IMG/VR virus record: IMGVR_UViG_3300020411_000846 | Location: 1-39,653 of that record | Strand: one strand, 5' to 3' | DNA: 39,653 nucleotides | Source of the DNA: a virus | Part shown: positions 2,918 through 9,215 of the stretch, piece by piece | Position numbering within the stretch: position 1 is the first letter of the stretch | Layout: each line of letters starts with the position of its first letter | Notes under the pieces: generated by a model | The model's input: the letters and a program-made list of their open reading frames with translations, nothing else | Database searches by the model: none | What the model was told of the DNA's origin: nothing | Made by a program: the position numbers and the translations under genes

Positions 2918-3139
2918 CTAAATCAATGGGTCATCGTATTCTGGAATGTTTTCATTGTAGATTTTGTCCTCAAGTTTTCTTATCTCGTTAATAATTGAAG
3001 TAGTTGCGGCAATGGCTACTTCAACCTCTTCAAGCGTTCTTTTTTCACGTAAATAGTGTTTCCATTTATGAAGCTCCATATAACAGAAATGCTGTTTAAA
3101 CTCATAAGAAAGTGATTTTTCAGTAGTCATTTTTTTCAA
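2918..3139 (-). CDS. Hypothetical helical protein, 73 aa
   Basis: This is a charged, mostly helical protein ('MELHKWKHYLREKRTLEEV', then 'INEIRKLEDKI') ending in the acidic tail 'YDDPLI'. It overlaps the 3' end of the cytosine methyltransferase gene by 20 bases and is the penultimate gene of the leftward early operon. No family is recognised. Placement next to the methyltransferase suggests, but does not show, a link to it. Confidence 0.65.
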   Translation of the reverse strand: MKKMTTEKSLSYEFKQHFCYMELHKWKHYLREKRTLEEVEVAIAATTSIINEIRKLEDKIYNENIPEYDDPLI

Positions 3140-4025
3140 GGTCTAGTATTCTTCCAAGTGGTATTGTTGCTACAGCCGGGACTATGCTGTTTCCGAGGGC
3201 GCGTAATCTGTCCACCCTATTGGATAACCCATCATTTCCTCTACGAACGGTGGGTTCAGATACGTACCCTTTCCAGTCTGGGTTGAGTAAGTGTGGTTGA
3301 GAACGCCAGATAATTTGCCTTTCTCCGCTATCTTTTTGAAGTTTAGATTTTCCCCGGCGTCCTTGTAATCCCTTGAACATGGGGTCGGTAGATTCTGTAA
3401 CTTGTTGAAAAGTTCTACTGTCTCTGGGTTTACTGCTTCCCTTAGATTCCCTAATTTTTTTCGACCCTTTCTGTGTGTCTGAGTCTGTTTTATCATTGAA
3501 TCCAATCCTCTCGGCGGTAAATAATCCATTGTGTTTGGGGTAGGCAATGATCCAGATTCTTTCTCTTTTATGACAAGCGCCTCTTTGTTCGGCTGATATA
3601 ACCGACCATTCACAATCGTACCCTGCTTCGGAAAGTTCCCCGAGAACAATGTCCATTCCGAAATTAAGCAACGCTGATACGTTTTCCAACAAGATGTACC
3701 GGGGTCGTACCAAGCGAATGATTCTGACAAGTTCAAAGAAAAGTCCAGAACGTGTCTCGGGCGTGATTCCTTGGCGTTGGCCTCCAACGGATAAATCTTG
3801 GCACGGAAAGCCCCCGCAGAGGACGTCAAACTGAAAAGGTTTTGCTGTGTATGTTTTGATGTCATCATGAATAGGTACGTTTGGCCAATGTTTTTTTAAA
3901 ATTTTTTGACAGTAAGGATTGTTTTCAACAAACTGTGTTGTTTCAAAACCCCCAACAAGACGTTCAGCGGCATAAGAGAAACCCCCTATACCGCTAAATG
4001 TATCTAAAATTGTTAGCTTTTTCAT
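3120..4025 (-). CDS. C5-cytosine DNA methyltransferase, 301 aa
   Basis: The enzyme transfers a methyl group from S-adenosylmethionine to carbon 5 of cytosine in DNA. All main motifs are present: motif I 'FSGIGGF' (10-16), motif IV 'GGFPCQDLS' with the catalytic Cys75, motif VI 'ENV' (114-116), motif VIII 'QRGACHKRER' (147-156) and motif X 'ALGNSIVP' (276-283). The segment at about 170-240, where a target-recognition domain should lie, is short and unusually Lys/Ser-rich. That segment coincides with the best-conserved-looking part of another frame (see 3182-3868). It probably protects phage DNA from host restriction. It may also supply 5-methylcytosine to the TET/JBP-like enzyme at 38.0 kb; this is inference. 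Confidence 0.95.
   Translation of the reverse strand: MKKLTILDTFSGIGGFSYAAERLVGGFETTQFVENNPYCQKILKKHWPNVPIHDDIKTYTAKPFQFDVLCGGFPCQDLSVGGQRQGITPETRSGLFFELVRIIRLVRPRYILLENVSALLNFGMDIVLGELSEAGYDCEWSVISAEQRGACHKRERIWIIAYPKHNGLFTAERIGFNDKTDSDTQKGSKKIRESKGSSKPRDSRTFQQVTESTDPMFKGLQGRRGKSKLQKDSGERQIIWRSQPHLLNPDWKGYVSEPTVRRGNDGLSNRVDRLRALGNSIVPAVATIPLGRILDLEKNDY
3182..3868 (-). CDS. Overprinted gene nested inside the C5-methyltransferase gene, 228 aa
   Basis: This 228-codon frame lies wholly inside the methyltransferase gene, on the same strand in a different frame. It does not look like random read-through. It has two 'LPTP' motifs (108-111 and 160-163), 'NTMDYLPPRG' (112-121), 'GNLREAV' (140-146), 'SGNFPKQGT' (76-84) and near the end 'LNPPFVEEMMGYPIGWTDY' (204-222). 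I recall these motifs from a family of phage and prophage proteins encoded beside or over dcm-like genes. It begins ATG-ATG with no strong ribosome-binding site, so translation would depend on reinitiation or weak initiation. Function is unknown; it could supply target recognition or partner the methyltransferase. The chief doubt is whether it is expressed. Confidence 0.65.
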   Translation of the reverse strand: MMTSKHTQQNLFSLTSSAGAFRAKIYPLEANAKESRPRHVLDFSLNLSESFAWYDPGTSCWKTYQRCLISEWTLFSGNFPKQGTIVNGRLYQPNKEALVIKEKESGSLPTPNTMDYLPPRGLDSMIKQTQTHRKGRKKLGNLREAVNPETVELFNKLQNLPTPCSRDYKDAGENLNFKKIAEKGKLSGVLNHTYSTQTGKGTYLNPPFVEEMMGYPIGWTDYAPSETA

Positions 4026-4226
4026 TCATTCTTGTCCATGGTGTTTTTCCAATTCTTTAATTGCTTGAGCAAGTTCTAATTGTTTTATAAAATTTTCTCT
4101 TAACCATTCAGCCATAGCAAATCTTACAATTTGTGATGCCGAGCAATCAAACTCAATCGCTAAAAAATGAATGGCCTCATAATCTTTATTAGAGGCCGCA
4201 CGAAAGTAAATTCTATCGCTATCCAT
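4026..4226 (-). CDS. Ribbon-helix-helix-like small protein, 66 aa
   Basis: The sequence begins with a short strand ('RIYFRAAS') followed by two helices ('KDYEAIHFLAIEFDCSASQI' and 'VRFAMAEWLRENFIKQL'). This matches the size and layout of Arc/CopG-type ribbon-helix-helix DNA-binding proteins. It directly precedes the methyltransferase gene (stop and start adjacent) and its ATG overlaps the stop of the gene upstream. It could be an autoregulator of the leftward early operon. The family call is by pattern only. Confidence 0.6.
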   Translation of the reverse strand: MDSDRIYFRAASNKDYEAIHFLAIEFDCSASQIVRFAMAEWLRENFIKQLELAQAIKELEKHHGQE

Positions 4227-7343: not shown

Positions 7344-7547
7344 ATGAATACTAACGAACAGTTAAAAACATTAGAAACAGCCATATTGCATGGCGGTGGT
7401 TTCTATAGCAAACTGGCTCACGCCGCACTTTCAGCTGACCCAGACAATCGTGCTTTGATTTTCAAAACTTGGCCACAGCTAGAAACTGTCTATGGCCCTT
7501 TAGGACCTTTTCAACACAGTACTCCAGATTTGAGGTTAATTAAATGA
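7344..7547 (+). CDS. Small conserved-looking phage protein, 67 aa
   Basis: The start at ATG 7344 avoids the hairpin leader included in the longer frame from 7212. The sequence 'ILHGGGFYSKLAHAALSADP' (about 13-32) followed by 'WPQLETVYGPLGPF' resembles short proteins common in phage early regions, for which no function is known to me. It overlaps the exonuclease gene (ATGA). Confidence 0.65.
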   Translation: MNTNEQLKTLETAILHGGGFYSKLAHAALSADPDNRALIFKTWPQLETVYGPLGPFQHSTPDLRLIK

Positions 7548-8356
7548 TTATCCATGAGGTTAAACCAGTTTCAGTTGATTTTGCTAGTTATCAGGCAGAC
7601 CCCGCTTATAGCGCAACTGACTTGAAAAAATTGCTATCACAATGTCCAAAGGCTTTATGGCATAGCAAACACAATGAACTTGCACCGCCAAAGCTACCAA
7701 CACAAGCAATGAAACTGGGTAGCATGATTCACAAAAAAGTACTAGAGCCAGACGACTTTGACAAAGAGTACGTTGTACTTGAGGAAAAGCGCACCAAAGA
7801 AGGCAAAAAACTTGCCCTCGAATATGAGCAAAAAGGCTTGACTACTTACACCCCGGCGGACGCAAAACTTATTGACGATATGACTTTGGCAATTTGTCAG
7901 CATCCCGAAGCTCACGCACTTTTAGATAAAGGTCAATCTGAACAATCTTTCTGGTGGACGCATAGTTCAACAGGTCTTGATTGTAAATGTCGTTGCGACA
8001 AAATTCACAACGATACAATAGTTGATCTTAAAACTTGTGGCGAGGGTGGCGCTTCGCCAAAGGCTTTTACATCTTCAATTTTGAAGTTTATGTATCATGT
8101 CCAAGCCGCACATTATCTACAAGGTACTGGGGCTGACCGCTTCATCTTTGTAGCTATAGAAAAAGTATTTCCCTACAACATAGGAATATACGAATTAGAC
8201 AACGATTTTATTGATTTAGGTTATGAACTCCAAGAACAGGCGCTTCTTAAAATATCTGAAGCAACTAAAACTGGATTCTGGCGAGGCTACACCGATGAGT
8301 TCGCTAGCGGAATCCAAACCCTTTACCCACCACAATGGCTCCTCAACGATGACTAA
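7544..8356 (+). CDS. PD-(D/E)XK exonuclease, RecE/exonuclease VIII-like, 270 aa
   Basis: This family degrades duplex ends 5' to 3' to leave single strands for annealing. Visible elements are 'YSATDLKKLLSQCPKALW' (about 22-39), 'GSMIHKKVLEPDDF' with His63, and the nuclease core 'GLDCKCRCDKI' (Asp152) then 'IVDLKT' (Asp161, Lys163), followed by 'YHVQAAHY' (184-191). These form the D...DxK...Q motif. It matches the C-terminal nuclease part of RecE and the DUF3799-type enzymes. The partner annealing protein lies one gene downstream, so the pair forms a recombination system. Confidence 0.85.
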   Translation: MIIHEVKPVSVDFASYQADPAYSATDLKKLLSQCPKALWHSKHNELAPPKLPTQAMKLGSMIHKKVLEPDDFDKEYVVLEEKRTKEGKKLALEYEQKGLTTYTPADAKLIDDMTLAICQHPEAHALLDKGQSEQSFWWTHSSTGLDCKCRCDKIHNDTIVDLKTCGEGGASPKAFTSSILKFMYHVQAAHYLQGTGADRFIFVAIEKVFPYNIGIYELDNDFIDLGYELQEQALLKISEATKTGFWRGYTDEFASGIQTLYPPQWLLNDD

Positions 8357-9215
8357 ACCAGACTTCAAGGTTATGCAAATGACCCCAGAAAAAGCCAAAC
8401 AAATATTAGTGGCGAAAAATAGGAACAATCGTGGTATTAAAGCATCAAATCTAAAACGGTTGACCACAGCTATTGAAAACGGCGAGTGGAGAATAACAAA
8501 CCAAGGTATAGCATTTGATGACCAAGGCAACCTTATAGACGGTCAGCATAGACTAGCCGCTATTTTACAGACAGGAAAAACAGTCCCTATTCTTGTTGGA
8601 ACCAATTTAGACCCTAGAATATTTGACTGTGTAGATACCGGGACTGCTAGAACTGCCGGAGACGGTATTGATATTGCCGGAAGTAACCACGGAAAAACTA
8701 TTGCGGCGGCAATCAAGATTTATTATTTGTACAATAACTGGCCAAAACGTGCATGGTCTAGCACCGTTGCCCCAACATCAGCCCAGATATTGAAAATATA
8801 CGAATCAAAAAAAGACACAATAGAGGCGGTTTACTCCGTTATTGCCAAAAAACATAAGAACTACAAATGTTTTCCTAAAAGTATTGGTTTGTGTTTTACA
8901 TTGATTTGTTTAGATGCCGGTTGGTCAGACATACAAATGTATGAGTTTTGGGACGCGGTAACGCTAGGTGCAAATTTACAGGCAGACAGCGCAGTACTTT
9001 CTTTCAGAAACCAGTTAAGCAATGTTGAATATCGCAAGCGCGGTTGGTTTTCACAAAGATTTATTCTTAATGCTTTTATTGTTTGTTTTAACAAGCATAC
9101 TCAAAACATTCCTACCATCAGGTTTATAGCGCCAAGACCTGATACAAATATGTACAAGGTAGAAAAACCCGCGCAAAAAGAAACATCAATCTTGGAGGTT
9201 ATTAAAGCATCGTGA
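8349..9215 (+). CDS. ParB-like DGQHR-domain protein, 288 aa
   Basis: The start is ATG 8349, overlapping the exonuclease stop by 8 bases. The N-terminal domain has 'NRGIKASNLKRLTTAIENGE' (about 25-44) and 'DGQHRLAAI' (about 64-72), the signature of a ParB/sulfiredoxin-related fold seen in phage proteins and in DndB/DpdB-type DNA-modification proteins. The helical C-terminal two thirds is unlike any domain I know. Its position between the exonuclease and the annealing protein suggests action on DNA, but the role is unknown. Confidence 0.75.
   Translation: MTKPDFKVMQMTPEKAKQILVAKNRNNRGIKASNLKRLTTAIENGEWRITNQGIAFDDQGNLIDGQHRLAAILQTGKTVPILVGTNLDPRIFDCVDTGTARTAGDGIDIAGSNHGKTIAAAIKIYYLYNNWPKRAWSSTVAPTSAQILKIYESKKDTIEAVYSVIAKKHKNYKCFPKSIGLCFTLICLDAGWSDIQMYEFWDAVTLGANLQADSAVLSFRNQLSNVEYRKRGWFSQRFILNAFIVCFNKHTQNIPTIRFIAPRPDTNMYKVEKPAQKETSILEVIKAS

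Follow-up and report, generated by a model that had tools for sequence, protein, structure and literature searches.

The window, a 39.65-kb IMG/VR virus contig taken over its whole length of 39,653 nucleotides, contains two overlapping open reading frames on the minus strand. The shorter frame, here called beta (3868..3182, 228 aa), lies entirely within the longer one, alpha (4025..3120, 301 aa), in the +1 register. The overlap is about 690 bp on the same strand, and the coordinates agree exactly with those of a preliminary description that had reported a 228-codon frame inside a 301-codon methyltransferase gene. The features of the locus, all on the minus strand, are as follows.

3120..4025 (-): alpha, predicted catalytic subunit of a C5-cytosine DNA methyltransferase, 301 aa, with motifs I-VIII and X and without IX (Pfam, phrog_363 and M.HhaI profile match)
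3798..3815 (-): alpha motif IV, GGFPCQ, with the catalytic Cys75 (P74 and C75 invariant in 51 sequences)
3678..3686 (-): alpha motif VI, ENV (E114, N115 and V116 invariant in alpha alignment A2)
3552..3587 (-): alpha motif VIII, QRGACHKRERIW (H152, R154 and R156 invariant in alignment A2)
3216..3530 (-): alpha linker rich in Lys and Ser, residues 166-270, for which no fold is predicted, facing the beta recognition modules (pLDDT and substitution periodicity)
3177..3209 (-): alpha motif X, RLRALGNSIVP, residues 273-283 (R273, G278 and N279 invariant; C-terminal helix)
3182..3868 (-): beta, nested +1 frame, 228 aa, with a conserved N-terminal block, two putative LPTP recognition modules and motif IX (phrog_1008; 118/119 loci; selection tests)
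3863..3868 (-): beta start, two adjacent ATG codons over the alpha His-Asp codons (ATG present in 89/89 loci)
3593..3724 (-): beta N-terminal block, residues 49-92 (ESFAWYDPGTSCWKT...FPKQGTIVNGRLYQ), double-coding with alpha motifs V-VIII (slowing of alpha third positions)
3536..3547 (-): first LPTP of beta, residues 108-111, opening the first recognition module (near-invariant in beta alignment A1, 57 sequences)
3380..3391 (-): second LPTP of beta, residues 160-163, opening the second recognition module (near-invariant in alignment A1)
3206..3256 (-): beta motif IX, NPPFVEEMMGYPIGWTD, residues 205-221 (F208-Y215 invariant in 57 sequences)

The small neighbours of the methyltransferase gene, at 4026-4226 and 2918-3139, match phrog_28298 and phrog_35960, both of unknown function. 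Elsewhere in the window, an ORF at 8223-9215 (+) overlaps the exonuclease VIII-like ORF at 7544-8356 by 134 bases; its true start probably lies further downstream, since the family match begins only at residue 41.

The alpha protein matches the DNA_methylase family in Pfam (1.8e-42, residues 5-208) and phrog_363, labelled "DNA methyltransferase", in PHROG (3.9e-71). Motifs I, IV (PCQ), VI (ENV), VIII and X follow each other in this order and coincide with invariant columns of alignment A2, which identifies alpha as a C5-cytosine DNA methyltransferase. In M.HhaI and M.HaeIII, the large domain contains most of the conserved motifs, and the small domain contains the variable region and motif IX (PMC3404938). 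The alpha profile aligns to residues 11-179 of M.HhaI and, weakly at motif X, to residues 299-311, while the recognition domain and motif IX are skipped. The preliminary description had placed motifs I-X in the methyltransferase frame, which holds for motifs I-VIII and X; motif IX is absent from the alpha frame, in the window gene as well as in its type-A (nested) relatives, and sits in the nested frame. The structure predicted by AlphaFold has high confidence for residues 1-165 and a pLDDT under 50 for residues 166-278, followed by a good C-terminal motif X helix (pLDDT block means of 81-89 for residues 281-300). The ordered part of the model matches M.HhaI with a Z-score of 24 over 192 residues at 2.3 A. 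The unfolded stretch is the Lys/Ser-rich region opposite the LPTP modules of beta, and it is mostly the passenger of beta. This composition had been noticed before and is real, and it is located where the nested frame dominates; the recognition domain that had been expected there corresponds to no conserved or predicted fold in alpha. The combination that defines a single-chain C5 methyltransferase, i.e. motif IX and a folded recognition domain between motifs VIII and X in one frame, is not found in alpha.

The beta protein matches phrog_1008 over residues 4-224 (6.2e-19). Modelled alone in AlphaFold it gives a poor model (pLDDT 51, pTM 0.21), and its profile has only chance-level matches among PDB sequences. 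The motifs that had been quoted for the nested frame, two LPTP, NTMDYLPPRG and MGYPIGWTD, are all present. An alignment of 57 beta sequences shows a conserved N-terminal block, the near-invariant LPTP motifs and an invariant FVEEMMGY, which in the window is followed by PIGWTD and corresponds to motif IX (FVEEMMGYPIGW). This motif was overlooked in the preliminary description, as was the precedent of M.EcoHK31I. It aligns with the in-frame motif IX of the phages Spartoi, Fancypants, Blue7 and Vash, whose complete or split methyltransferases made up the profile of the target-recognition domain (TRD) and motif IX against which beta was compared with hhalign (96.4% probability, E 1.4e-9). Two observations would suit a beta that is a separate DNA-binding or regulatory protein, overlapping by chance an alpha that works alone: no family was found for it in Pfam or NCBIfam, and its long conserved N-terminal block has no counterpart seen in single-chain methyltransferases. 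We consider such a chance overlap improbable, because alpha lacks both motif IX and a folded recognition region, beta matches the TRD and motif IX half of complete methyltransferases, and a recognisable motif IX occurs only in beta in the complete loci.

The start of beta coincides with the His-Asp(Asn)-Asp codons of alpha. There, CAT-GAY or CAY-GAT creates a +1-frame ATG at either of two neighbouring positions, and CAC-GAC creates none. At least one beta ATG is present in 89/89 alignable loci, through alternative codon choices. Among 37 representatives that are under 75% identical, the ATG-less combination CAC-GAC was seen in 0 cases as compared with 7.2 expected (Fisher p=5e-7). At the sequence level, the codon pattern is as expected if initiation at this site is selected. 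There is no clear Shine-Dalgarno sequence ahead of the beta ATG in the window; a GGAG precedes it in some of the relatives.

Constraint on both frames, which had been claimed from the appearance of the sequence, is borne out quantitatively by shuffling and by substitution periodicity. In 300 synonymous-codon shuffles of alpha, which keep its amino acids and codon usage, the longest open stretch in the +1 frame had a mean of 88 codons and a maximum of 169 codons, compared with 237 codons observed. Across 97 loci the median open stretch was 267 codons in the +1 frame and 51 in the +2 frame, in which the same genes mostly have 15-39 stops. The periodicity was obtained from pairwise comparisons in a codon alignment of 97 alphas, built in the alpha frame, in which position 1 of alpha is position 3 of beta; since the pairs are not independent, the z-scores overstate the significance. 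For pairs with 50-65% identity, alpha positions 1/2/3 differ by 0.234, 0.142 and 0.529 in the non-overlapping N-terminus, which is the usual pattern, and by 0.521, 0.356 and 0.365 in the second half of the overlap, where position 1 is the fastest. Likewise, the divergence at four-fold sites of alpha drops from 0.595 in the non-overlapping N-terminus to 0.247 in that second half. In codons 161-220 of the window gene, the periodicity has switched completely to that of beta. The third positions of alpha are slow at codons 101-140 (0.31-0.38, versus 0.55 at codons 1-20 and 81-100), and therefore the N-terminus of beta is selected too. At codons 261-280, where motif IX of beta faces the approach to motif X in alpha, all three positions are slow (0.18-0.37).

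A null model with selection on alpha only, made from synonymous shuffles of 19 sequences under 65% identical, was exceeded 1.26-2.65-fold by the identity of beta inside the overlap and 1.08-1.14-fold outside it, the latter excess being leftover shared ancestry. The identity of alpha is likewise above a beta-only null, and the +2 frame, too, has elevated identity within the overlap, as is expected of any doubly constrained stretch. A nested frame that merely shadows the conservation and codon usage of the methyltransferase would account for some of the similarity, as this null alone gives a beta identity of about 19-27% and part of the N-terminus of beta is constrained by conserved motifs of alpha. 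It explains neither the switch in periodicity nor the complementary codon choices at the start, nor the excess of beta identity, as much as 2.65-fold over the null, at places where alpha is poorly conserved, and the single-chain controls (SPR, KP15 and Pyei1) have no long +1 ORF. We reject this explanation, and the substitution patterns indicate that the alpha and beta frames are both under protein-level selection.

The arrangement is widespread. In IMG/VR loci retrieved with beta as the query, the nested frame was located in the same register inside an alpha relative in 80/80 cases. To avoid circularity, a second set of 119 viral loci was retrieved by alpha alone, and 118/119 contained a beta homolog in the +1 frame; the sole exception (L132) comes from the end of a contig and retains 67 codons of alpha. 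These counts are not numbers of independent events, as some contigs overlap or are near-identical. In 101/109 loci with a complete alpha, beta alone has a recognisable motif IX and alpha alone has motif X. The remaining eight mostly have degenerate or unrecognised motifs, and they include a frameshifted locus (L116) and a single-chain locus (L131), in which the in-frame motif IX was missed by the motif pattern used. The alpha of L116 (1320-2389) looks frameshifted, with motif X on another fragment than motifs I-VIII, through either a sequencing error or natural variation. Named phages with the nested pair include Synechococcus phage S-H1, Cylindrospermopsis phage Cr-LKS3, Acinetobacter phage ABMM1, Salmonella phage S9-5, Paenibacillus phages Harrison and Xenia, Lacticaseibacillus phage R9.1 and Bacteroides phage BKO1-TP3. 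In the public annotation of one locus (L138, KT997847, 1498-2334), the nested beta is named as the methyltransferase gene and the real alpha is shortened to 80 aa.

Beyond viruses, the pair occurs in Bacteroidota chromosomal contigs, in one Planctomycetota MAG and in Euryarchaeota MAG contigs. In Prevotella bivia (L151, 1974-3551), the two frames, 526 and 495 codons long, share nearly their whole length, about 1.5 kb, and contain many LPTP-like modules. Among the neighbours of three Bacteroidota copies only one gene had a Pfam match, an N6 methylase beside the Pedobacter copy. The suggestion that overprinting of this pair is widespread, and that the second protein has a part in choosing targets or in regulation, thus stands with respect to its spread in viral, bacterial and archaeal loci and, through the match of beta to an in-frame TRD and motif IX half and the swapped modules described below, with respect to target choice; no evidence was found for a role in regulation. 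Two of the outcomes that had been named in advance as speaking against the suggestion were not seen: the nested frame is free of stops in close relatives, and sequence homologous to it occurs where no dcm frame overlaps it, being in frame in both Spartoi and Fancypants.

The number of LPTP-like repeats varies from 0-5 per beta and correlates with the length of beta (r=0.82). Conservation along the pair was compared for 228 pairs of loci with at least 80% identity over residues 4-159 of alpha and beta middles of similar length. The median identities were 0.87 for alpha, 0.82 for the N-terminal block of beta, 0.555 for the middle of beta and 0.83 for motif IX. The clearest swap was seen between the loci L020 and L048, with identities of 94% for alpha, 92% for the N-terminus of beta, 32% for its middle and 78% for motif IX. 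The middle of beta diverges while both flanks are kept, which is the expected signature of exchanged recognition modules, and the comparison indicates that these modules are exchanged among close relatives, as recognition domains do. Modules that are gained, lost and swapped while alpha is nearly unchanged would also fit an alpha that is active alone with relaxed specificity, together with an optional beta by which target sites are added or altered. We regard an optional beta as very improbable, given the organising role that motif IX has in the small domain of known C5 methyltransferases, the presence of beta in 118/119 loci with a truncated contig end as the exception, and the report on M.EcoHK31I, which, judging by its title, describes a need for two proteins in vitro.

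The relatives of the pair also occur in other frame-states. In the type B relatives Blue7 (L133, 1483-2482) and Vash (L008, 1784-2861), alpha ends after motif VIII and the +1 frame contains the LPTP modules as well as motifs IX and X. In Spartoi (L006) and Fancypants (L007), the alpha frame itself holds LPTP, IX and X. The +1 frame of Fancypants (1866-2441) retains a beta-like N-terminal block with LPTP even though the alpha frame has the TRD and motifs IX and X; this block may be a relic of re-fusion. Streptococcus phage MM1 (L134, 1592-2074) and the locus L131 (1700-2197) have a complete single-chain alpha, yet a +1 ORF covers motifs IV-VIII. This ORF contains a DILE...KYFLS segment, which SPR (L136) has in frame, and may represent a second type of overprinting among C5 methyltransferases. 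The m5C methyltransferase of Paracoccus phage Pyei1, which has cloned relatives that are active with relaxed specificity, was considered as evidence for activity. It gives none for the nested type because it is a single-chain enzyme, in which motif IX is in frame and the +1 frame is interrupted by 18 stops.

In Blue7 and Vash, a frameshift after motif VIII would yield a complete enzyme with motifs I-X, and by analogy the locus in the window could encode one fused chain, in which motifs I-VIII are joined to the TRD and motif IX of beta without a separate initiation of beta. The shifted product of the window type would however lack motif X, and no common slippery run is apparent by eye at the motif VIII junction. 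Moreover, beta is selected far upstream of motif VIII, in its N-terminal block, and its start codon is conserved. We therefore disfavour the fused chain, for which there is a small probability, and retain two separately initiated proteins as the preferred reading. The variety of frame-states suggests repeated frame moves. We tentatively propose that the TRD and motif IX half of phage C5 methyltransferases has moved between the frames of one locus, so that the single-chain, AquI-like split and nested forms would be frame-states of the same DNA. The nested form might then gain specificities by overprinted module exchange, with the catalytic frame tolerating the by-product as a disordered linker.

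Taken together, the locus likely encodes an obligate alpha/beta C5 methyltransferase of the M.EcoHK31I kind, in which the recognition domain would be located in the overprinted subunit. Alpha would form the large catalytic domain, which would bind SAM and contribute Cys75, and whose fold would be closed by the motif X helix. Translation of beta would begin in the +1 frame, at a separate ATG within the alpha gene, and beta would supply most of the small domain, i.e. the LPTP-delimited target-recognition modules together with motif IX, behind a conserved N-terminal block of its own. On DNA, the two chains would be expected to come together as a heterodimer, in which beta would choose the sequence and position it over the active site of alpha. 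We infer that beta is translated, that it binds alpha, that each subunit needs the other for methylation, and that the phage evades host restriction by means of the mark. The immediate neighbours of the pair, mostly genes of unknown function, include no recognised nuclease partner, and therefore an orphan, anti-restriction role is likely.

This reading implies that many phage and some bacterial "dcm" genes probably hide a recognition subunit in another frame, and that annotations often miss this subunit or wrongly call it a second methyltransferase. Recoding the methyltransferase frame for cloning would silently destroy beta and thereby give an inactive enzyme. The long same-strand overlap, with constraint measurable in both frames, is good material for studies of overprinted gene evolution, and the results suggest that recognition modules can be exchanged within an overprinted frame.

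M.EcoHK31I is a two-polypeptide C5 methyltransferase with the recognition site YGGCCR, to which M.EaeI is related, and the gene of its small subunit lies within that of the large subunit, in a different reading frame. The principle of such a two-subunit enzyme is said to have been already known from a 1995 paper on M.EcoHK31I in NAR. To our knowledge, the production of the two halves of one enzyme from overlapping frames is rare, and the studied precedent is one E. coli enzyme. A divergent match on an Enterobacter plasmid (L244) was considered as a possible M.EcoHK31I and rejected, as it has no restriction gene annotated alongside. The nested small subunit is shared with the window and 118/119 of its relatives. 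Unlike M.EcoHK31I, the pair in the window is located on a phage contig without a recognised adjacent nuclease, and the likeness between the two is one of motif layout.

Among other systems, M.AquI (CYCGRG) is similar to the window in that the catalytic and recognition parts are on two polypeptides. Its beta subunit holds motifs IX and X, whereas in the window alpha keeps motif X and beta is wholly nested; Blue7 and Vash resemble the M.AquI split, but with overlapping genes. The label of phrog_1008, "DNA methyltransferase", is silent on its being an overlapping recognition half. The same nested layout, with both frames annotated in public records, is found in another phage lineage, in the Paenibacillus phages Shelly (gp55/gp56) and Jacopo (gp56/gp57). 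The record of Shelly gp56 contains the note "g55 internal gene", and gp56 and gp57 of Jacopo are both named methyltransferase; neither record gives a mechanism for the pair. A text search of open-access papers found no description of a phage-wide class of this nested pair or of overprinted module swapping. The methylase gene of phage ShiLan also has a second protein in another frame, but this is an out-of-frame HNH endonuclease, a homing insertion unrelated to methylation (PMC11855218), whereas beta in the window overlaps the catalytic motifs and is predicted to complete the enzyme. The closest likeness in motif division is to M.EcoHK31I, in which the larger subunit has motifs I-VIII and X and the smaller subunit motif IX, as do alpha and beta, respectively; the predicted target-recognition domain of M.EcoHK31I was, however, placed in the large subunit (PMC3404938), while the recognition modules in the window are in beta and alpha has no folded or conserved counterpart. 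The architecture has a studied precedent, and the placement of the recognition domain in beta departs from the published description of M.EcoHK31I.
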